From an uncultured cyanobacterium (lineage in GTDB: Bacteria > Cyanobacteriota > Cyanobacteriia > CACIAM-69d), in assembly GCA_937883785.1 (NCBI GenBank), contig CALGDE010000070.1, positions 1-47,634 on the forward strand: a stretch of DNA of 47,634 bases, given 5' to 3'. The translations under genes and the position numbers were made by a program. How positions within the stretch are numbered: position 1 is the stretch's first letter; each line of letters starts with the position of its first letter. The notes below the pieces were generated by a model. That model worked only from the letters and a program-made list of their open reading frames with translations. It had not been told where the DNA came from and searched no databases. Shown piece by piece: positions 20,848 to 32,180 of the stretch.

Positions 20848-21312
20848 GCGTTTTTCTAATAGAACTTACGCCAAATTTCTGAAGCCCTTACCCTCCAGTA
20901 GGTATCAAAACAATTATGGTGATCTGGCACTGCTTCACCAGGATTATGGGAAGAGAACGCAAAACTTACCTGTATGAGCAATCCAGGATGGTAGATCATC
21001 GTAATATCTGTCTCCACCACTCAATCTTCCTAGAGGGTGCGTCGATTAGAACGGTTCAGTTCAGGATGCAAATTAACTGGCTGATGGTATCCCTGACTTT
21101 TTCCGCTTGCATTTTCTGGTTGAATTGTCCAAGGATGCCTTATCTTCTGCTGTCGTTCAGCCACCTCAGGATATTGGCTTAGGAATTCGGGAACGGAAAG
21201 AAGGAGGACATAGGTACGCAACTATCAGGAACTAATGCGGCTAGTTCCTATTAATCAAACTGCGTTTGGCAATGGTTTGGCAGCGCGGCGTTGACTCACA
21301 TTGTGCGGAACA
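20848..21312. other. intergenic region, no gene recognised
   Basis: These 465 bp hold no frame with a recognisable family. Short open stretches exist on both strands (20916-21182 plus, 21030-21221 minus), but each is broken and lacks a ribosome binding site. The sequence has the look of decayed coding DNA; its origin could not be identified. Confidence 0.45.
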
Positions 21313-22614
21313 TTAATGTTCCTCGGCAGTTCTTTCTAAAGACTGGAGCGCAGGCAGACAGAACCCTGCTAAACCCACTAGCGCCATGGCGATCGCACAC
21401 AGCACATACAGCATCGCCAGCCCCGCCCCACTACCCGACCCAAACACGGGTACAAACCAGCGAGCAAGTCCCACAGGAGATCCCATAGCTGGTTCAAAAA
21501 AGCGATCCCCCAGGGGACCCGCCAATAAAGCAGAGAGGGCGCTTACGATTTCTAGCCCTAGGGATCTAGCCGCAAATACTTTGCCCTGGTGCTCTGAGGG
21601 CACCTTTTCCATCCATAGGGCGTTGGTGCAGCTTCCCAACAAAGGAAAGTTGAGGGATGAGCAAAACTGGGACGGAATCCACGCCAACGGCGATCGCCCC
21701 AAGCCAAAAACGATTTTACTAAGCCCTGCGCCCACATAGCCCACCAGCATTCCTAGGACTCGCCGCTTGGGACCGCGCCACAGGGTAATAGCGATCGCCC
21801 CGGTAACGCCGCCAATGCCCGCGGCTGAACTGATCGCCCCCAAAATCTGCGAATTATTGCCAGAGCGAGCCAGAATCATTGCGCTGTAAACTGCGCCGCC
21901 TAAATCGTGGGCAAACCAAAACGAAGCGGTGACCAACAGCAAACATCGCAGCCCGTCGCGTCGCCAAATATAGCGAATTCCAAAGGTCAGCTCATCCCAT
22001 AAATTCTCTGACTTTTTTGAGTGGCTGATTGGCTTATTAACGGTTTTTTCGTGCTTTATTTGGGGGATTTTGATCCAGCTCAAGGTGGCGATCGCAACCC
22101 CAAACGTTGCCAAATCAATGGGCAAAATACCACCCAAGCCGATTACCGGATAAAGTGCACCGGCAAGGGCGGGCGCGACGATACTGGATCCATAGTGAAC
22201 CGCCGCCACCATGCTGCTAGCGCGGGTGTAGTTTTCAGTAGAAATTAATGAGGCGATCGACGTGGAATAGGCAAGGGTCTGAATTTGACCAAAGCCGCCC
22301 CTAACCGATGCCGCCAGATATAAATGCCAAATTGCCAGGTTGCCCGATAAATAAAGCACAAGGATAAATAAGGTGGACATGGCAGCAACTCCGTCCCCCA
22401 GCATGATCAAACTTTTGCGATCGGCGCGATCCACAATGATTCCCGCAAATAGGGAAACGAAAATACTGGGCAGCAGTTGGAAAAAGCCCACCAAAGCCAG
22501 GGCCGTCGCCGTACCGGTCAGATCCCAGGCCCAAAGGGTCAGGGCAAAGCCCCCCATATAGCTGCCAATAGAAGAGACCAGTTGTCCCAGCCAAATAAGA
22601 GTAAATTTACGCAC
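21313..22614 (-). CDS. MFS transporter, likely siderophore exporter
   Basis: This 433-residue major facilitator protein has 12 predicted helices. The helix 2-3 loop motif reads GIIVDRADRKSL (the MFS motif A form with DR and R). It resembles the EntS-like branch of drug/siderophore exporters (FTLIWLGQLVSSIGSYM at the N-terminus). It starts with GTG 22614, only 4 bp from the stop of the FecB-type gene, so the two are very probably one transcript. Because the receptor and binding protein come before it, export of the cell's own siderophore is the likely job, though the substrate cannot be read from sequence. A decayed second copy of its 3' end lies at 24983-25260. Confidence 0.85.
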   Translation of the reverse strand: MRKFTLIWLGQLVSSIGSYMGGFALTLWAWDLTGTATALALVGFFQLLPSIFVSLFAGIIVDRADRKSLIMLGDGVAAMSTLFILVLYLSGNLAIWHLYLAASVRGGFGQIQTLAYSTSIASLISTENYTRASSMVAAVHYGSSIVAPALAGALYPVIGLGGILPIDLATFGVAIATLSWIKIPQIKHEKTVNKPISHSKKSENLWDELTFGIRYIWRRDGLRCLLLVTASFWFAHDLGGAVYSAMILARSGNNSQILGAISSAAGIGGVTGAIAITLWRGPKRRVLGMLVGYVGAGLSKIVFGLGRSPLAWIPSQFCSSLNFPLLGSCTNALWMEKVPSEHQGKVFAARSLGLEIVSALSALLAGPLGDRFFEPAMGSPVGLARWFVPVFGSGSGAGLAMLYVLCAIAMALVGLAGFCLPALQSLERTAEEH

Positions 22615-22618
22615 CGAC

Positions 22619-23686
22619 TTACCCTTGCTGCTCCTCTGCCACAGTGGGCAGCAGCAAATCAGGTAAAGCCTCTAAAATCAGCTGGTCGGTCAAGGGACCA
22701 CGAGTCACGCTGGTCCAAAGATACATATCTACGAAAAAGAAGCGCCCCTTTTGAAACGCATCCATTGATTCAATTAGGGGACGCTCTGTCCACTGTTTTT
22801 GGCTAGGGTCTAAAGGATTCAGAAGATCATCTCCTCCGCTACAGCTGGTGCAATACATCAAAATAACAATATCGCTTTCCACCTGAGGCAGTATTTCCCA
22901 AGAAATGCTTTGGACATTACCTTCAGCGCCTGGCGGGACAACAATTTCAAAGCCAATATCTTTCAGTAACCGGCTCGCAGTACTGTCTGCACTAAGTCCC
23001 ACATAGGTGTCTAAATCAGAATTGATTAGCAGTATACGCGGGTGAGCCTTCAGTACCGGTTCTAAAGCAGTTCTAGCCTGGGCAATTTGTCGATCATAGG
23101 CTGCCAGCAGCTCTTTCCCTCGAGCTTCTCGCCCCAATGCTTGGGCAACACCCTCAATATTTTGCTGCCAAGACTGCGGCTCGTTGGGATTCTTTCTATC
23201 GTTAAATAGCAACGTTGGGGCAATCTGACTCAGCGAAGAATATTCGTCACTATTGGCCCAACTTTCTCCCAGAATTATATCTGGCTTGAGCTGAGTCAGG
23301 CGTTCTAAGGAGGGAGAAGGGCGTGTTCCCAGCCCCACGGGTTTAGTGGTCACCCATTTACCCAGATGGGGAATTTGCTCTGTTGGGTTGTCGTAGGTTT
23401 GAAGATTAACTTCAATAACTTCTGCATAACCAGCGGGCTGGGCCCCTAAAGCGAGAATGTTATCCAGTATGTGGGCACTAAGCACTGCAATTTTTTGAGG
23501 CTGACCGCACACTTCAGTTACCCCCATCTCGTGCTCTACCGTGCGGCAATTGTCAGCAGATGCAGGCACTGATGTGGGAGAAGATTGCTTGATCGAAGTG
23601 GGCGTTTGGCAGGCTGCGATCAGCAACACTACCAGCAGCCCATACGCAAAGTTGCGAAGTGTTCGGAACATTGAGCGAAATATCAC
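22619..23686 (-). CDS. iron-siderophore ABC transporter substrate-binding lipoprotein (FecB type)
   Basis: This periplasmic binding protein for ferric siderophores belongs to cluster A-II, type III. The 355-residue protein has a lipoprotein signal with lipobox LIAAC, followed by a Ser/Pro-rich tether. The FecB/FhuD domain has CGQPQKIAVLSAHILDNILALG, KPDIILGESWAN and a C-terminal lobe with FFVDMYLW. The ABC permease and ATPase that it would serve are not in this window. It is 9 bp downstream of the TonB-receptor fragment and 4 bp upstream of the MFS gene on the same strand, an iron-uptake operon. The start is ATG 23686. Confidence 0.88.
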   Translation of the reverse strand: MIFRSMFRTLRNFAYGLLVVLLIAACQTPTSIKQSSPTSVPASADNCRTVEHEMGVTEVCGQPQKIAVLSAHILDNILALGAQPAGYAEVIEVNLQTYDNPTEQIPHLGKWVTTKPVGLGTRPSPSLERLTQLKPDIILGESWANSDEYSSLSQIAPTLLFNDRKNPNEPQSWQQNIEGVAQALGREARGKELLAAYDRQIAQARTALEPVLKAHPRILLINSDLDTYVGLSADSTASRLLKDIGFEIVVPPGAEGNVQSISWEILPQVESDIVILMYCTSCSGGDDLLNPLDPSQKQWTERPLIESMDAFQKGRFFFVDMYLWTSVTRGPLTDQLILEALPDLLLPTVAEEQQG

Positions 23687-23695
23687 TTATCCTCC

Positions 23696-24958
23696 TTAAA
23701 ACCGCACTGAAACCCTACCAACAACCGAAAATGGGGCACCGGGAAAGACGCCAACAATACTTTGGGACGATTCTAAGTAGTTGGTGTCAAACAGGTTCTG
23801 AAAATTGATTTGGGCTTGCCAATTGTTTCGCTTGTAAAAAATACTGGCGTCGGCTCGCACATAGGAGGGCAGAACAAAATCATTGGGGATTTGTGCTTCG
23901 CGATCGCCCACGTAAAACACACCCAAGCCAAATCCCAACCCCTGTAAATTGCCTGATTGAATTTCGTAGGTGGTCCATAAGCTTGCACCACTGCCTGGCG
24001 CATTGAGCAGAGCGTCATCTTCTGGGTTGTTATCATCCCCCTCAGAAATAAACGCATCATTAAAAAACAAGGAGCCAATAACATTCCAGCCATCCGATAT
24101 TTCTCCCGCCACATCCAACTCAATGCCGCGACTTCTAACCTCGCCGACGGGAATAGAAAAATTAGGATTATCAGGATCAGCGCGAACGAGGTTTGTATTG
24201 GTGATGTCGTAGGCGGCCAAATTAATAACCACATCGCCAAGTTCTGCCCTAACCCCAACCTCGTATTGGGTTCCGCGTTCCGGTTCGATAATATCGCCAT
24301 CAACCGTGGTCACACTATTAGGAATAAACGACCGACTATAGCTGGCGTAAATAGAGATGGGTTCTATGGGTTGATAGACGATACCTACGCGAGGGGAGAA
24401 AGCTTCACTATCAAACTCGTCAGAGCTAGGAAAAGACTCCCCATCAGCATTGGTAAAAACAGAATCATTTTCGTTTCTATTAAAGTCATATCGCTCCCCA
24501 ACTAGCAGCTTGAGATTGGGCAACAGCGTAATTTGATCTTGTATGTACAGCCCCAGGGTTTCTTGACTGTTGTCACTGGTGAAGAAGCCAGTAAAGTCTT
24601 CAACACCGGGAATGGGTATACCGTATTGTGGATTGACCACATCAATGGCGAGCGGATTATTGTCAAGATCGCGAAAAGAATCAGCGACAGGAAAGCCAAA
24701 GTCAATCCGCGACAATTCAAATCCTACTAGTAGTTGATGTTCTATCGAGCCCGTATTAAACTCACCAATTAAATCTGTTTGCCAGGAAAAGCTTTCGTTA
24801 AAACCCTGAGCATCCGAGAAAAACCTTACGATTTCATTGCTAACCTCTGAATCGAACCCTATAAATGAGCGAACAGCCTCCAAGTCATCCTGAAAAAACT
24901 CGGCACCAAAGCCACTACGCAGCCTAAGGTTTTCGTTAAAACGATTCATGTTTGGCAA
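23696..24958 (-). pseudogene. TonB-dependent siderophore receptor, N-terminally truncated
   Basis: Only the C-terminal beta-barrel part of a TonB-dependent outer-membrane receptor remains, about 420 residues where relatives have roughly 700-850. Recognisable barrel words include NTGSIEHQLLVGFELSR, QETLGLYIQDQITLLPNLKLLVGERYD (split across strands), FSPRVGIVYQPIEPISIYASYSRSF and the last strand VVGRVSVRF, ending in the terminal Phe needed for barrel insertion. The signal peptide, TonB box, plug domain and first strands are missing. The frame is closed upstream by TGA codons inside a tandem 20-bp duplication (24961-25000). TTG 24958 or ATG 24949 would be the first possible start, with no good ribosome binding site. 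It is probably not a working receptor, but its 3' part may still lead the fecB-MFS transcript. Confidence 0.82.
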
Positions 24959-24960
24959 TG

Positions 24961-25000
24961 CTTCAACAATTTGGCATCAGCTTCAACAATTTGGCATCAG
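24961..25000. repeat. 20-bp perfect tandem duplication at the receptor breakpoint
   Basis: CTTCAACAATTTGGCATCAG occurs twice head-to-tail (24961-24980, 24981-25000), with a partial third copy (TTTGGCAATG) just to the left. It lies exactly where the TonB-receptor frame is lost and the MFS remnant ends, so it probably marks a recombination or slippage junction. Confidence 0.9.
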
Positions 25001-25260
25001 TTTATGTGATGCGGGACGTCGATGTTTTTCAGCGGTCTCTTCCAAACTCTGAAGTGTAGGCAGACAGAAGCCAGCACAACCGGTTAGCGTCATAGCGATC
25101 GCGCACAAAACATACAGTATCCACATCCCAGCCCCAGTGCCAGTGCCAGTGCCAATGCCAATGCCAGTGCCAGTGCCAGTGCCAAACAAAGATACAAACC
25201 AGCCAGAAAATCCCAGGGGAGATTCTGTGGCAGGCTTGGTGACAAGAAAGCTAATTAGCT
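24983..25260 (-). pseudogene. decayed 3' end of a second MFS exporter gene
   Basis: On the minus strand the words SPLGFSGWFVSLFG, MWILYVLCAIAMTLTGCAGFCLPTLQSLEETAEKH match the C-terminus of the intact MFS protein at 21313-22614 (SPVGLARWFVPVFG ... MLYVLCAIAMALVGLAGFCLPALQSLERTAEEH). The similarity starts abruptly near 25260 and upstream codons are unrelated, so the first roughly 360 residues are missing. The short Gly-Ser linker of the intact gene has become a run of Gly-Thr/Gly-Ile dipeptides, encoded by a hexamer microsatellite (25135-25182). It is a fragment with no start of its own. Confidence 0.82.
25135..25182. repeat. hexanucleotide microsatellite, eight units
   Basis: There are eight head-to-tail hexamers: three CAGTGC, two CAATGC, three CAGTGC. 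On the minus strand they encode Gly-Thr and Gly-Ile dipeptides inside the MFS remnant. The expansion fits replication slippage in a gene no longer under selection. Confidence 0.93.
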
Positions 25261-25348
25261 CTTGGGGCAAGTCACAAAACAATATTCTTGGGTAAATGTC
25301 CCGTGACTCCACAGAAGCACACACTTCATTTTTCCCTTTGACTTATAA

Positions 25349-25520
25349 ATCCTTGCGAGGCTCAACTGACAATGTTGCGCGGTCAGCCCAGTGGCAGAAC
25401 ATCAACACACCCCCAAGCTTCCCTGGCCGCATCGGAAGCGCCCCTAGTCCCAAGCAACACCATCTCGACCTGATCCACCTCTACTTTTGGTCTGGATTTA
25501 CCCTCGCGAGCAGCCCTTAG
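25349..25520 (+). pseudogene. decayed 3' end of a third CHAT-protein gene
   Basis: In one frame CEAQLTMLRGQ (about 25353-25390) corresponds to RQAQLALLRN of the intact CHAT proteins. In a second frame DLIHLYFWSGFTLASSP (ending at the TAG at 25520) corresponds to their final residues (DFAHPYFWSGFTLVGSPW). The frame change between the two matches shows a frameshift. The rest of the gene is missing upstream, where the oppositely oriented MFS remnant begins. It is therefore a dead fragment about 170 bp long, 0.5 kb upstream of the first intact paralogue and in the same orientation. Confidence 0.75.
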
Positions 25521-26025
25521 CCCCCCCTAAAACCTGTCATTAACCAATTGGAAACTAGCGGGAAATCAGCCCAAAAATCAGCCCCAAGAAGCCTCATAAA
25601 TTTGCCATTTTTATTCTCGCCGGTTCGACTTTTACGGTGCCTTACGGTGCACATTTGGAATGGTAAAATAACAATAAGCAAGATAGAAATTCAAGGTTGG
25701 TTTGGGCACTGATTAAAAAGTGACTGCTGAGCAAACGCCCCCTAGAAACGCCAATTCATGAGGAACTTCAAACTGTAGATCTTTAGATTTTCCAGATTTG
25801 GGTCGGTTACTTAGATGCGTGAAAGGTTCCAAGTTGCAATCTATAAATTTTAATTTTGAACCTTATTTTAGGCTTTCCCAATTAATCTTTCTAAGTTACT
25901 TTCTCTCTGAAAAATTAGCTGGTCTAAAGTGGCTGTCCCCATTGAACTTGTCCGTTTAGTAATTAAATTCTCCCGAAGTTGCCACATTGCGTTTATTTTT
26001 TGTGCGATCGCAGCACAGGTTTGGA
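25521..26025. other. AT-rich upstream region of the first FHA-CHAT gene
   Basis: These 505 bp contain no supported gene. A short direct repeat (TTACGGTGC twice at about 25632-25650) and several A/T-rich tracts are seen. It should carry the promoter of the CHAT gene, but no clear -10/-35 pair was singled out. Confidence 0.4.
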
Positions 26026-29000
26026 ATGGTTATGCTCTATCGCCGTTGTTTAAGCGCAGTATCCCCATTGTCTGCCGCACTGCTGGGCGCGATCGCCACC
26101 AACGGGCTTTATCCCCTCCCCCAGGTCAGTGCCCAGGTCAGCATTACCCCTGCCACTGACGAGATATCCACCCAGGTGGACCAGCAAAATAACGTATTCA
26201 CCATCACCGGAGGGCAACGGTCCCAAGACGGGCTCACCCTATTCCACAGCTTTGGAGAATTCAATTTAAACGCCAGAGAAACGGCGCGGTTTGTTAACGC
26301 AGTGGAAACGGACGTGGTTTTGGGGCGCATTATCGGGGGCAACCCATCCCATATCGACGGATTAATCCAGATGGTGGGGAATCCGGCGGATTTGTACCTA
26401 TTGAATCTGGCAGGCATTATTTTTGGACCCAATGCCTCTTTAGATCTACCCAAAACGTTTATTGGCAGCACGGCCACCGGTGTGGGTCTTGAAGATTTCC
26501 AGGGCAACATCCGATGGTTTGACGTATTTGGTTCATCGGCGGTCCATGAATTTTCGGGCTATCCATCAATATTGCGATTTGAGGTGGAAAATCCAGGCAG
26601 CGTCGCCAATTTTGGAACGTTGCACATTGGCGAGTCGGATCGGCTGTGGCTGGTGGGGGGCAGCGTTTTGCAGGCGGGAGTGATTAGAGCGCCGTTGGGG
26701 GATGTGGTGTTGGCTTCCGTGAGGGCTTACCAACGCCTAAGGCTGGGGCGTTCTGCCAGTGTTTTTGATATCAGAATTCAGGACTCTAGCCCACCTTCGA
26801 TGCCCCTTCCCGTTGCTCCCTTGGATTTACCCACCTTGCTAACGGGGGCGGAGGGAATACGCCCGGCGGCGGCGGTGTCGGTAACATCTCAAGGGCAAAT
26901 AATTTTGCAAGATTCGACCCTGGGCCAATCCGCCAGTGGTTCGGCGAGGGGAGCAACAACGGTCGTCGATTCTCCCCAGGGTTCAACGATTTTAAGCGGC
27001 ATCATCGACGTGAGCGGATCTAGCCAAAACCTATCCGACTTTGGGGCCGTGGTGGTTACGGGACAGGAGGTTTATTTGACGGGGGCTACCATTGATGCGC
27101 GATCGCCCACCAGCGCGGGGATTATTATTTTGGGCAGCGATGTGCGCGATGTAGGCTCCGGGGTTGAGACGGAGCGCATTTTTGTGGATCAGGGGTCGGT
27201 GATTGATGCCAGTGCCTTGGAGCTGGGGAACGGCGGCATTGTGACCATAACGGCAACGGAGGAAGCCCGCTTTCTGGGACATTTAACGGCCGATGGAGGG
27301 GCGATCGCCGGCAATGGCGGCATTGCACTTATTTCTGGCGACAAACAACCGACTGCCATCAGTCTCAACGCCACCAATGGTCAGCCCGGCATACTGACCT
27401 CGCCCGACACTGACCTGGGAGAAAGCGTCGGTGCAGGGTTAACGGGGCTATCCCAAGCCATTAGCGCCATATTATCTTTTGTAGAATTTGAGCCGATTTT
27501 TGATCAAATCACCGAGGACGTTGATCCGAGAAATGCGGGAGAAATTGCGGCGGTTCTGGAAAGTTTAGATGCAACCCCCCTGGGGCAAGACTTTATGACC
27601 GTTTCGGCGATGGCGGTGGAAAACTTAAACGCCGCTGACGCTATTTTGGCGGACGCCTTTAACTCCGTCAGCGCTTTTACCGTCGGGGATAACCGGAGAG
27701 AGGCGGACATTGCGTCGTTAATGCTGTCCCAGCAAACCCAGGTATTAGCCACCATCAATGGCAACCCTGAACAGGTGCGCCAGGAGCTGGGCGACTCCCT
27801 GGATACCCTAACGGCGGCAGAATTGGTGGGCGGTCTAGAGCAGTTGCGGGCGGCGGAGTACAGCGACCACTGGGGAGTTAGCTATCAGACGCCGGTGATC
27901 GAGTCATCGGTGGACTCCATTCAAACGGTGCTCCAGGGCATTGCTCGCAACCCAGGCAAAACGGCGGCGGTGGTTTACGCGTTTATTCACAACGACGATT
28001 TGGCGCTAACGCTGGTTCTACCTAACGGAGAATCGAAACACCACCGGTTCAAAGGGGTCGTTCCGTCCCTGCTGGCGGCCCACAGGGAAATGCGCTGGCA
28101 TGTGACCAATCCCCTTCAGGACAGTCCAGAAGCTTACCAACAACCAGCCCAGGATTTATACCAGTTGCTTCTGGCTCCATTTCGACAAAAGCTGGACCAG
28201 CAGGGGGTTGAGCTACTGCTGTTTTCCCTAGATTCGGGACTGCGATCGCTCCCGGTAGCCGCCCTCCATGATGGTGAGCAATATTTAATCGAACACTACG
28301 CCGTTGCCATCATCCCTAGCTTTGGACTGTTAGAAACCCAATACAAACCCCTCGCCGACGCGAAAGTGCTGGTGGCAGGGGCGTCCCGCTTTGATGCCCT
28401 GGGGGATTTACCGTCGGTGCCCGTGGAAGCGGCCGCCATCGGAGAAAACTGGCCAACGGTGAAATTAATGGAGGAGGATTTCACCCTGGATGCGATGCAA
28501 GCGGCGCGGCGGGAATCAGAATTTGCGATCGCCCATCTAGCCACCCACGCGGTATTTCGGGACGGCGACCCCAGCAACTCCTTTGTGCAGTTGTGGGGCA
28601 ATGAGCGGCTGACCCTAGATGCGATCGCCTCCCTCAACTTCCACAGTCCCCCGCTGGAGTTACTGGTACTAAGCGCCTGTCAAACGGCCTTTGGCACCCC
28701 CTCAGCAGAACTAGGCTTTGCCGGGATTTCCGTGCAATCGGGAGCCAAAAGCGTTGTGGCTAGCCTATGGCAGGTAAGCGATGCCGGCACTTCCACCTTG
28801 ATGGCAGAATTTTATAAGCGCCTAGGGGACATCCCCACCAAGGCAGAAGCTCTGCGCCAAGCCCAATTGGCAATACTGCGCAGCCAAACCAGTGCCGCTG
28901 CCCCTGGGGCTCGCGCCAGCAATAAATCCCTGCTGGCGTCGGAAGTGTTACTCTCGCCCTCCCCTGACATTGACCTAACCCATCCTTATTTCTGGTCTGG

Positions 29001-29028
29001 TTTTGCGCTCGTGGGAAGCCCCTGGTGA
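26026..29028 (+). CDS. exported FHA/TPS-domain protein with C-terminal CHAT protease domain (copy 1)
   Basis: From ATG 26026 (or 26032) the protein is about 1000 residues. It has a signal peptide (LSAVSPLSAALLGAIATNG, cleavage near VSA-Q). The two-partner-secretion haemagglutinin N-domain follows (ISTQVDQQNNVFTITGG, LFHSFGEFNLN, HIDGLIQMVGNPADLYLLN, FGPNASLDLP, then WLVGGSVLQAG). Next come right-handed beta-helix repeats to about residue 460, a helical spacer of about 120 residues and a C-terminal CHAT domain. CHAT is a caspase/clan-CD peptidase family. The dyad is intact: His in AIAHLATHAVFRD (His841) and Cys in LVLSACQTAFG (Cys885). The conserved N-P-x-G element of TPS domains reads LLNLAGIIFGPN, with Pro replaced by Leu. 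The frame is open to TTG 25987, but that start lacks support. It is probably exported. No TpsB gene is nearby. Confidence 0.9.
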   Translation: MVMLYRRCLSAVSPLSAALLGAIATNGLYPLPQVSAQVSITPATDEISTQVDQQNNVFTITGGQRSQDGLTLFHSFGEFNLNARETARFVNAVETDVVLGRIIGGNPSHIDGLIQMVGNPADLYLLNLAGIIFGPNASLDLPKTFIGSTATGVGLEDFQGNIRWFDVFGSSAVHEFSGYPSILRFEVENPGSVANFGTLHIGESDRLWLVGGSVLQAGVIRAPLGDVVLASVRAYQRLRLGRSASVFDIRIQDSSPPSMPLPVAPLDLPTLLTGAEGIRPAAAVSVTSQGQIILQDSTLGQSASGSARGATTVVDSPQGSTILSGIIDVSGSSQNLSDFGAVVVTGQEVYLTGATIDARSPTSAGIIILGSDVRDVGSGVETERIFVDQGSVIDASALELGNGGIVTITATEEARFLGHLTADGGAIAGNGGIALISGDKQPTAISLNATNGQPGILTSPDTDLGESVGAGLTGLSQAISAILSFVEFEPIFDQITEDVDPRNAGEIAAVLESLDATPLGQDFMTVSAMAVENLNAADAILADAFNSVSAFTVGDNRREADIASLMLSQQTQVLATINGNPEQVRQELGDSLDTLTAAELVGGLEQLRAAEYSDHWGVSYQTPVIESSVDSIQTVLQGIARNPGKTAAVVYAFIHNDDLALTLVLPNGESKHHRFKGVVPSLLAAHREMRWHVTNPLQDSPEAYQQPAQDLYQLLLAPFRQKLDQQGVELLLFSLDSGLRSLPVAALHDGEQYLIEHYAVAIIPSFGLLETQYKPLADAKVLVAGASRFDALGDLPSVPVEAAAIGENWPTVKLMEEDFTLDAMQAARRESEFAIAHLATHAVFRDGDPSNSFVQLWGNERLTLDAIASLNFHSPPLELLVLSACQTAFGTPSAELGFAGISVQSGAKSVVASLWQVSDAGTSTLMAEFYKRLGDIPTKAEALRQAQLAILRSQTSAAAPGARASNKSLLASEVLLSPSPDIDLTHPYFWSGFALVGSPW

Positions 29029-29167: not shown

Positions 29168-30166
29168 TTATTCAACAGGTGAACATTCCCCGCCTAGACC
29201 TTCCACAATGGCGCAGGTGTTATATTCCAGCATCCCAGCATAAGTCTCCCCAGGCGTACCCTCTGCGCCCAAACCATCTGCCAGCAGGACTTTCTCGGAG
29301 ATTTCAACCTCCGCTTCGTCTGCGACGGTTTTTAGGACGCGATCGTCAGCGGTCAACTCAGCAAAGATGATGGGAATAGATTTTTCACGAATGGATGTGG
29401 CTAGCTCCTCAACGGTGGCGGCACTGGGCTCCTCTTCCGTCGAAATCCCCAACAGTGTGCCCTCCACCGTCAACCCGTAGGCTTTAGCATAGTAGGACAT
29501 GGCATCATGGGTCGTGATCAAGCGGCGCTGCCCCTCCGGAATGGTGGCAATTTGCTCTGGAATCCAGGCATCCAGAGCCTTCAACTTAGCCATCAGCGTT
29601 TCAGCATTTTCGGTGTACATGTCGGTGTTGTCGGGATCGACGGCGATAAGGTTATCCCGAATCAACTCAACCATTGCCAGACCGTTCTCAACGTCATGCC
29701 AGACGTGGGGATCGGGTTCTAACTCTCCATCTTCTTCCGCCTCGATCAGTTCTTGCACCGACTCATCATGCAAGGCGATTTTAGGCGCCTCGGAGTCAGA
29801 GGCAGTAGCCATATCAATGATCGAAGGCTCAAAGTTGAGTCCTGCGTAAAAGACCACGTCAGCCGTATCCACTGCTTCCCGATCAGAGGGCTTGGCCGAA
29901 TAAGTGTGAGGATCTTGATCCGGGGGAATCAGGCATTTCAAGTCCACCGCATCCGCCGCAATTTGAGAGGTCAAATCGCAAATCACGCTGTAGGACGCCA
30001 CCACATCGATCTTGGAATCGTCGTCTGCCACATCACCCGCAGCGCCTTCGGATTCGGTTGTAGTCTCTGAATCGCTGGGAGCCGAACCGGTGCAACCTGC
30101 AATAGCAATTACAAGTGCGGTCGCGACCCCAAAGATCCCTTGCTTCTTTAAAAAGTTGCGTTGCAT
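29168..30166 (-). CDS. znuA: zinc ABC transporter substrate-binding lipoprotein (ZnuA/TroA type)
   Basis: This periplasmic metal-binding lipoprotein belongs to cluster A-I. The 332-residue protein has the lipobox IAGC (Cys25), an acidic tether (about 30-50) and two lobes. The four expected metal ligands can be placed by motif: His87 (DPHTYS), His154 (DPHVWHD), His220 (TTHDAMSYY) and Asp297 (LLADGLG). Manganese-type relatives (PsaA, MntC) have Glu at the third position in an SEGA/CEGA motif, so the His here favours zinc. The flexible loop before DPHVW is acidic (EAEEDGELE) and not His-rich. Two cysteines (63, 78) could form a disulfide. The gene is divergent from the ATPase and permease genes, with a Zur-box-like site in between. 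The start is ATG 30166. Confidence 0.88.
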   Translation of the reverse strand: MQRNFLKKQGIFGVATALVIAIAGCTGSAPSDSETTTESEGAAGDVADDDSKIDVVASYSVICDLTSQIAADAVDLKCLIPPDQDPHTYSAKPSDREAVDTADVVFYAGLNFEPSIIDMATASDSEAPKIALHDESVQELIEAEEDGELEPDPHVWHDVENGLAMVELIRDNLIAVDPDNTDMYTENAETLMAKLKALDAWIPEQIATIPEGQRRLITTHDAMSYYAKAYGLTVEGTLLGISTEEEPSAATVEELATSIREKSIPIIFAELTADDRVLKTVADEAEVEISEKVLLADGLGAEGTPGETYAGMLEYNTCAIVEGLGGECSPVE

Positions 30167-30250
30167 TTTCCTTTCTTCCTACTTGTTTCGACGATTAAAG
30201 AATTACCAAAAGTGCTGGAAACAAAGAACCATTCTATTTCCAAAGACTAA

Positions 30251-30265
30251 TGAAAATGATTAGCG
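30251..30265. promoter_or_regulatory. Zur-box-like palindrome upstream of znuA
   Basis: TGAAAATGATTAGCG agrees with the cyanobacterial Zur consensus TGATAATNATTATCA at 11 of 14 defined positions. It lies 85 bp upstream of the znuA start and 257 bp from znuC, in the divergent intergenic region. Zinc-responsive repression is the expected effect; this is inference from the motif. Confidence 0.55.
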
Positions 30266-30521
30266 TTTAGGTATAACACGTTTTTCAATTTCTCGTACAC
30301 CCGATAAGGGTAAAAATAAACCGCCTAAACAGTCAGATAGAAGGGCGTCATCGTTTTATTGGCCTTTACAACTGCTGCGCTTTAACTGCTCCCATTGATT
30401 ATTTCATAAGAGATTGCTGTCTATTCATAGAATTCTGCGGTCAGTGTTCTTTCCGTCAGGCTTGCTGCTTTTGTGAGGCTAATTTACAATTGCTTCTTGC
30501 CTTTGTCATAGGTTGATATCG

Positions 30522-31241
30522 ATGCTAGAAGTTCGGAATTTGTCGGTCGATTATCGAGGGAACCGCGCACTCGAAGAGGTCAGTCTTTTTATACCCTTAG
30601 GACAATTGGTGGGCATTATCGGTCCTAATGGCGCAGGCAAAAGTACTTTAGTTGAAGCCATGCTGAATTTAATCCCGATAACGCAAGGGAAAGTTCAGTT
30701 TAAGGACAGGCCGCTGAAGGATCAGCTACTCAAAACGAGCTATGTCCCCCAGCGCACTCTTATTGACTGGGATTACCCGGTGACGGTGTGGAATGTGGTG
30801 CTGATGGCTCAGACGGTCCAAACTGGTCTTTTCCGTGGGGTTAGTCGAAAAGCTCGACACTTAGCCAGTGAGGCCCTTGAGCGGGTAAATCTGTATGACT
30901 TGCGCGATCGCCCCATTGGTGAGTTGTCGGGCGGACAACAGCAGCGCGTTTTTTTGGCACGGGCGCTGGCAAAAAAAGCCGAGCTACTGGTATTCGATGA
31001 GCCTTTTACAGGGGTTGATCGCAAAACCGAGGACATTATTTACGACATCTTTCGAGATCTACGCACTGAAGGCAAAACAGTGCTGGTTATTAACCACGAT
31101 TTGGGGGATTCTCTGGCGATTTATGATCAGCTACTCCTTCTGAATAAACGCTTGATTGCCCAAGGACCCCGTCAGGAAGTCATCACCTCTGAAAACCTAG
31201 CGCGGGCTTATGGTCGAGGGCTTGCCCGCGTCTTTGCTTAA
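30522..31241 (+). CDS. znuC: zinc/manganese ABC transporter ATP-binding protein
   Basis: This is the ATPase subunit of the metal importer. From ATG 30522 it has 239 residues with Walker A GPNGAGKST, the Q-loop in SYVPQRTLIDWDYPVTVWNVV, the signature LSGGQQQR, Walker B LLVFDEPF and the switch His in INHDLG. The word YVPQR(x)LIDWDYPVTV is typical of the Mn/Zn/Fe ATPases. An upstream TTG at 30513 is possible, but the ATG follows AGG at good spacing. The permease gene follows 51 bp later, and the binding protein is divergently encoded upstream. Confidence 0.92.
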   Translation: MLEVRNLSVDYRGNRALEEVSLFIPLGQLVGIIGPNGAGKSTLVEAMLNLIPITQGKVQFKDRPLKDQLLKTSYVPQRTLIDWDYPVTVWNVVLMAQTVQTGLFRGVSRKARHLASEALERVNLYDLRDRPIGELSGGQQQRVFLARALAKKAELLVFDEPFTGVDRKTEDIIYDIFRDLRTEGKTVLVINHDLGDSLAIYDQLLLLNKRLIAQGPRQEVITSENLARAYGRGLARVFA

Positions 31242-31292
31242 AAGCCATCACCTTGGACTTCAATTAATTTTAAAAGGAGACAAAAGTATTTC

Positions 31293-32180
31293 ATGCTGGA
31301 TCTAATTCTGGGGCCGTTGTCGTTGTCCTTTATGCAACGAGCCCTCATGCTAGGGGTTTTCCTTGGTGTTCTGTGCGCCGTTGTGGGGAGCTACATGATT
31401 GTGCAGCGGATGGGGATGTTGTCCCATGCCATTTCTCACTCGGTGATGGCGGGGTTACCCGTTGCTTACGTGCTTGGATTAGCTCTATCCTTTGGGGCTT
31501 TGGTGTCGGGAGTGCTTAGTGCATTAGTGCTCTATTTAATTGAATCGAAGTCCCGCGTGAAAACTGACACTGCGATGGCCCTAATCTTGACTTCATTTGT
31601 TGCGATGGGAGTCACGTTAGTCAGTGTTCTGCCGGGGGCAAATCGTCTTGACTTAGTTCATATCCTGTTTGGCGACATTCTAGGGGTAACCATGGAAGAA
31701 GTGTGGTGGACCCTTGTCGTCACGGTCGTTGGCATTATCCTGACACGCCTGTTTTATAAAGAGCTTTTGTTTTACACCTTTGATCCGAAAGGGGCACAGG
31801 CCAGTGGTTTACCTGTGCGTTGGTACAATGCCGCCCTCATTGTTGCGATGACCGTGACGATTGTCGTTTGTTTGCCCACCATTGGGGCGCTTCTGGTGGT
31901 CGCCTTGCTGGTGGCACCTGCTGCAACAGCCTATTTACTGGTTAAAGAGCTTCATCAAATGATGTGGGTAGGTTCGATTATCGGTGCTCTTTCCAGCGTG
32001 ATTGGTATGTATCTGAGTTACTACTTGGACTCACCTTCTGGAGCGGCGATTGTCCTTGTTTCATTCTGCTTTTTCTGCATAGCATTTATATTCAGTCCGT
32101 CTGATGGCTTGTTGAGCAACCTTTGGGCACGGAGCAAGCGATCGCCGTTGGCTGACCAAACGAAATTTGCCGACCAGTAA
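31293..32180 (+). CDS. znuB: zinc/manganese ABC transporter permease
   Basis: This is the membrane subunit of the ABC-3 family. The 295-residue protein has about eight to nine hydrophobic helices and family words: FMQRALMLGVFLGVLCAVVG, GMLSHAISHSVMAGLPVAY (the cytoplasmic coupling region) and GALLVVALLVAPAATAYLL. ATG 31293 is preceded by the ribosome binding site AAAAGGAGAC. With znuC it forms a two-gene operon. Together with the divergent znuA it makes a complete importer. Family members carry either zinc or manganese; the ligand set of the neighbouring binding protein favours zinc. Confidence 0.92.
   Translation: MLDLILGPLSLSFMQRALMLGVFLGVLCAVVGSYMIVQRMGMLSHAISHSVMAGLPVAYVLGLALSFGALVSGVLSALVLYLIESKSRVKTDTAMALILTSFVAMGVTLVSVLPGANRLDLVHILFGDILGVTMEEVWWTLVVTVVGIILTRLFYKELLFYTFDPKGAQASGLPVRWYNAALIVAMTVTIVVCLPTIGALLVVALLVAPAATAYLLVKELHQMMWVGSIIGALSSVIGMYLSYYLDSPSGAAIVLVSFCFFCIAFIFSPSDGLLSNLWARSKRSPLADQTKFADQ

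Follow-up and report, generated by a model that had tools for sequence, protein, structure and literature searches.

A 5′-truncated siderophore receptor gene beside the remnant of a second MFS transporter gene in an uncultured cyanobacterium

Cyanobacterial receptor genes that no longer encode one full protein have a described precedent in Anabaena PCC 7120, for which 22 receptors and one split pair are reported (Mirus et al. 2009, PMC2771747). The N-terminal part of this pair, all2620/all2619, is transcribed, and according to these authors the pair would need to act as a heterodimer, although a genetic accident was also considered. The locus described in this work resembles all2620/all2619 in that a receptor gene has ceased to encode a single complete protein, but there the two halves stand side by side with a stop codon between them, whereas here the N-terminal half is gone. 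The window, that is, the whole stretch of 47,634 nucleotides that was analysed, is the complete contig C70 of the draft genome.

At the level of the protein family, the stub belongs with the TonB-dependent siderophore receptors of the FhuA/FoxA-like type (TIGR01783), although its match is restricted to profile positions 290-649 of 649 and its score of 223.0 falls just below the family cut-off of 223.5. It has neither plug nor signal peptide and lacks the start of the barrel, whereas a full relative, L063, covers the whole profile and also aligns to the structures of the enantio-pyochelin receptor, FoxA/CntO and FhuA. A comparison with the homologous cluster in related genomes had been proposed when the stretch was first read from its letters, and it showed that the receptor-fecB-MFS order does recur in cyanobacteria (L068, L071, L076, L031, L072 and others), with the same gene order and strand as here. 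What sets the present locus apart from these is the truncated receptor and the MFS remnant that stands in front of it.

The receptor stub and its neighbourhood

The stub is an open reading frame of 420 aa on the minus strand (23696-24958), whose homologous part covers 23699-24946. A Pfam search of this ORF found the C-terminal barrel (TonB_dep_Rec_b-barrel, PF00593; 4.5e-54, profile positions 95-436 of 436) and no PF07715 plug domain, which is present in the full relative L063. Homology begins at ORF residue 5, which corresponds to residue 481 in the protein of Leptolyngbya sp. Heron Island J, a full receptor whose 894-residue open frame encodes AMIN, plug and barrel; only residues 481-894 of this protein align with the stub, at 68% identity. 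Signal peptide and N-terminus are absent as judged by this homology start, and the missing portion comprises the signal peptide, the AMIN domain, the plug and the first part of the barrel. The sequence-only reading was thus right that the receptor frame has lost its N-terminal half, but it placed the loss at 24949-24961, and the last homologous receptor codon lies at 24946, with homology stopping at 24946-24950.

Downstream of the stub we find an intact gene for a fecB-like siderophore-binding lipoprotein (Peripla_BP_2; 22619-23686, minus strand, 355 aa) and an intact MFS transporter gene (21313-22614, minus strand, 433 aa), for which the closest NCBIfam models are TIGR00900, an H+ antiporter, and more weakly EntS, both below cut-off. 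The ribosome-binding site of fecB overlaps the stop codon of the receptor stub, and translational coupling between both frames is therefore possible. Promoter-like sites in the region 24900-26050 did not exceed background (one found against 1.1 expected), and a scan for Fur-box-like sequences also gave nothing above background, its best hit (14/19) not lying upstream of the stub. Elsewhere in the window, the region 25987-29028 encodes a protein of 1013 aa that carries a TPS secretion domain at its N-terminus and a CHAT domain at its C-terminus and is read divergently from the receptor remnant, and 29168-32180 holds a znuABC-like locus for metal uptake, in which the binding protein is encoded divergently from the ATPase and the permease. 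A 138-bp tandem repeat of 2.3 copies occupies positions 1-315 and continues off the left end of the contig.

The MFS remnant and the junction

The C-terminal ~76 codons of a second MFS transporter gene lie in front of the stub, at 25022-25249 of the minus strand, inside an open frame that spans 24983-25324. That the C-terminus of another MFS copy begins beyond the duplication was among the first claims made on this DNA and was borne out, with the last MFS codon at 25022, a match that reaches about 25249 (tblastn 1.9e-14) and an own-genome DNA match of E=1.4e-14 over 25010-25136. Sixty of these codons align with the intact 433-aa protein, and 12 form an in-frame insertion derived from a hexanucleotide array, CCAGTG repeated 8.5 times (25134-25184). 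The remnant shares 41 of 64 residues with the adjacent downstream MFS protein, against 26 of 66 for the best of 15 other MFS proteins. Moreover, the local alignment between the end of the intact gene and the remnant passes the stop codon and finishes in a shared 11-bp sequence, CATTGCCAAAC, which stops at 24950. The 3′ flank of the remnant can accordingly be delimited at 24950-25021 (minus strand) through its short homology to the flank of the intact gene near 21264; although the homology of the two flanks past the stop codon is short, the chance of such an 11-bp match in two 60-nt flanks is about 9e-4. Over 60 codons, both MFS copies differ with a pS of 0.51 and a pN of 0.20 (Fisher p=2e-4), which indicates that most of their divergence arose while both copies were functional, and that the duplication is old and its copies were kept for long under purifying selection.

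On the receptor side, the break in homology sets the putative deletion junction between receptor interior and MFS 3′ flank at 24946-24950. The perfect 20-bp tandem duplication reported on first reading does exist (copies 24960-24979 and 24980-24999), but the truncation does not sit exactly at it, since the duplication starts ~10 bp beyond the end of receptor homology, within the 3′ flank of the MFS remnant, and the breakpoint itself is free of the 20-bp repeat. A comparison of the junction with the paralogs revealed at most an AAC microhomology and about 3 extra bases, and hence points to an event that was likely illegitimate and not homologous. Nothing resembling the IS ends at contig ends (see below) was detected at the junction, and an IS-mediated truncation of the receptor was rejected for this reason.

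Altogether, the sequence comparisons support a duplication of the MFS gene followed by deletion. The sequence-only reading had proposed a tandem duplication of a whole receptor-fecB-MFS block, of which the second MFS copy beside the first one is recovered, whereas 25230-25995, upstream of the MFS remnant, yielded no convincing trace of another receptor or fecB, and a duplication of the entire block lacks support. It had also invoked a deletion between the copies; a deletion joining the MFS tail with the middle of the receptor does fit, but the age of the MFS copies suggests that it came later than the duplication. Moreover, the locus shows two truncations and not one, at the 5′ side of the receptor and at the front of the MFS remnant, and this second cut, at the own 5′ side of the upstream MFS, implies at least two breakpoints.

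A probable pseudogene and the alternative readings

We consider it quite probable that the receptor stub is a recent pseudogene originated by deletion, lying ahead of intact fecB and MFS genes and beside the remnant of an old MFS duplicate. The ancestral locus would have contained a pair of related MFS genes, of which the upstream one read in the direction of a complete receptor-fecB-MFS unit; an MFS gene followed by a receptor exists in the relative L075. Both MFS copies would then have diverged for long under selection, and a later illegitimate deletion would have removed the DNA between the upstream MFS 3′ flank and about receptor codon 480, and with it the promoter, the signal peptide, the AMIN domain, the plug and the start of the barrel, about one fifth of its length, whereas a separate break would have removed the front of the upstream MFS gene. 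The product of such a stub could presumably be neither exported nor gated, and would thus have no receptor function, while the downstream fecB and MFS genes may still be transcribed. Points against this scenario are that no second genome with the same junction was found among those compared, that the homology of the MFS flanks past the stop codon is short, and that the receptor and fecB which a duplicated block would have lost have left no trace.

As for when the truncation took place, no stop occurs over 416 codons of the stub, and the neutral bound on divergence since the truncation can be estimated at about 0.07-0.09 substitutions per site, indels ignored. Of the 54 columns with a conservation of 93% or more in the other rows of an alignment of 44 receptors, the stub keeps 53, and those other rows depart in 0 to 6 columns, a conservation comparable to that of intact receptors. 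Either the truncation is young or the frame of the stub is still used. An open and well-conserved frame of 420 codons is also what retained function predicts, and age and selection are inseparable with one sequence; dS between the receptor paralogs is saturated, and therefore no branch-specific dN/dS test is possible.

An improbable alternative, the one that survives best, is that the stub has been retained for use, either as a leader whose translation is coupled to fecB, or as one of two receptor halves that pair in trans. The open frame with its conserved residues and the overlap between the fecB ribosome-binding site and the stub stop codon would agree with it, as would the existence of the split pair all2620/all2619 in Anabaena PCC 7120 (PMC2771747). 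However, the stub has no signal peptide, no plug and no partner: no orphan N-terminal half of its clade was found in the genome, where the N-half rows C38, C28a and C28b each have their own C-half. Moreover, no ribosome-binding site was evident by eye before the stub ATG at 24949, and none of the 59 genomes searched with the C-half contains a relative with the same breakpoint.

Less credible still, and very improbable in our view, is that the junction is an assembly artefact joining loci that are not neighbours. The draft, of 4.84 Mb, is divided into 167 contigs. Of the 21 receptor matches in the own genome, 9 fall no more than about 130 bases from the end of a contig, so that receptor loci are the places where the assembly has difficulties. 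These breaks, however, coincide with repeated IS-like ends, whereas the junction in the window has none; at 20 bp, the tandem repeat falls short of the overhangs of roughly 50 bases seen at contig ends, no longer exact repeat was found across the junction, and the MFS flank match ends where receptor homology begins. A near-identical repeat able to misjoin was not found either, the best DNA matches within the genome being 71-74% for long stretches and 86% for one of 59 bp.

The last alternative, in which the stub would be a silent cassette that donates sequence to diversify receptors through gene conversion, finds some echo in the C-terminal-only stubs that relatives have near full receptors, as in L120, with three on one strand, in L072, with one, and elsewhere, but can be practically dismissed and was rejected after a search for near-identical tracts, which between the stub and the compared own-genome loci gave nothing better than those 59 bp, with exact or near-exact identity only up to 20 bp. 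Nor do the relatives demonstrate a preference for C-terminal stubs, as the two complete genomes to which the count was restricted, G018 and G037, once contig-end fragments were dropped, gave about 6 C-only against 2 N-only fragments, too few for such a bias. The three stubs of L120 (9695-9868, 10836-11000 and 11894-12298) lie on the same strand downstream of a full receptor, and are 77-83% identical to each other.

Broken receptors in the rest of the genome

Searches in the own genome gave 21 matches to the C-half and 26 to the N-terminal half of a full receptor. We counted 17 receptor genes of the family of the stub, 10 with a full open frame and 7 broken, a figure that leaves out nine weaker N-half matches (C77, three times, C132, C101, C10, C58, C82 and C133). 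Besides the window stub, with its deletion, the broken set includes C28a, which has a single in-frame TAA at a position occupied by a glutamine codon in the neighbouring C28b, two receptors split by one and the same repeated element with 8-bp target duplications (C28b/C90 and C38/C107), one split by another element with a TTA duplication (C154/C28-end), and one split with a 9-bp duplication (C78/C150). The seventh and least certain case, C118, is cut at a contig end with a further repeated end, and its partner was not found. Rejoining the flanks results in one open frame each for C28b/C90, C38/C107 and C154/C28-end, and C78/C150 is in frame across the join. This decay of other receptors in the genome is in line with the pseudogene reading of the stub.

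The first of these repeated elements has 19-bp ends, GCATAAGTGGGATGCTCCC, which occur 24 times in the genome, all of them at contig ends (loci L021, L022, L023, L024 and L097-L116, among others). In ten pairs of these ends the 8-bp target duplications match, and two of these pairs lie inside siderophore receptor genes. The elements were called IS from their repeated ends and target duplications, transposase genes not having been seen. Several other contig-end sequences that are repeated, and that seem to be different IS elements, split receptors or end contigs at L029/L030/L033, L021/L026 and L025, and the right end of the window shares a repeated contig-end sequence with contig C108.

A tree built from 44 receptor rows places the stub together with C28a, C38/C107 and the Heron Island J receptor (98/89), and C28b/C90 comes next outside this group (100/100). 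All four members of this clade from the present genome are broken, each by its own lesion, with p=0.015 given the 7/17 overall, for a comparison chosen after the fact. On the other side, the fecB genes beside five broken receptors (in the window, in L021, L022 and L024, and near C78/C150 in L033) are open, with 350-394 aa. Such a pattern fits either relaxed selection or selection against receptors, and the data favour neither. A more daring reading, which we regard as doubtful, is that the strain lost a whole clade of siderophore receptors, with four paralogs, by selection and not by neglect, through four independent lesions (a deletion, a nonsense mutation and two IS insertions) that left the neighbouring genes for binding proteins untouched. 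The literature covered gave nothing on the loss of a whole receptor clade in cyanobacteria, and nothing directly on point about receptor loss by cheating or independent mutations; no paper was found either on phage resistance and TonB-dependent siderophore receptors in cyanobacteria. If selection did act in this way, these receptors would be a liability for the cell, as an entry point for phage, bacteriocin or a toxic siderophore mimic.

The truncation of the stub as such is a case of ordinary gene decay, which advises caution against counting the ORF at 23696-24958 as a receptor. The clade-wide breakage of receptors next to open fecB partners, on the other hand, offers a testable case of receptor loss in a cyanobacterium, one that could tell relaxed selection apart from selection against receptors at the surface.
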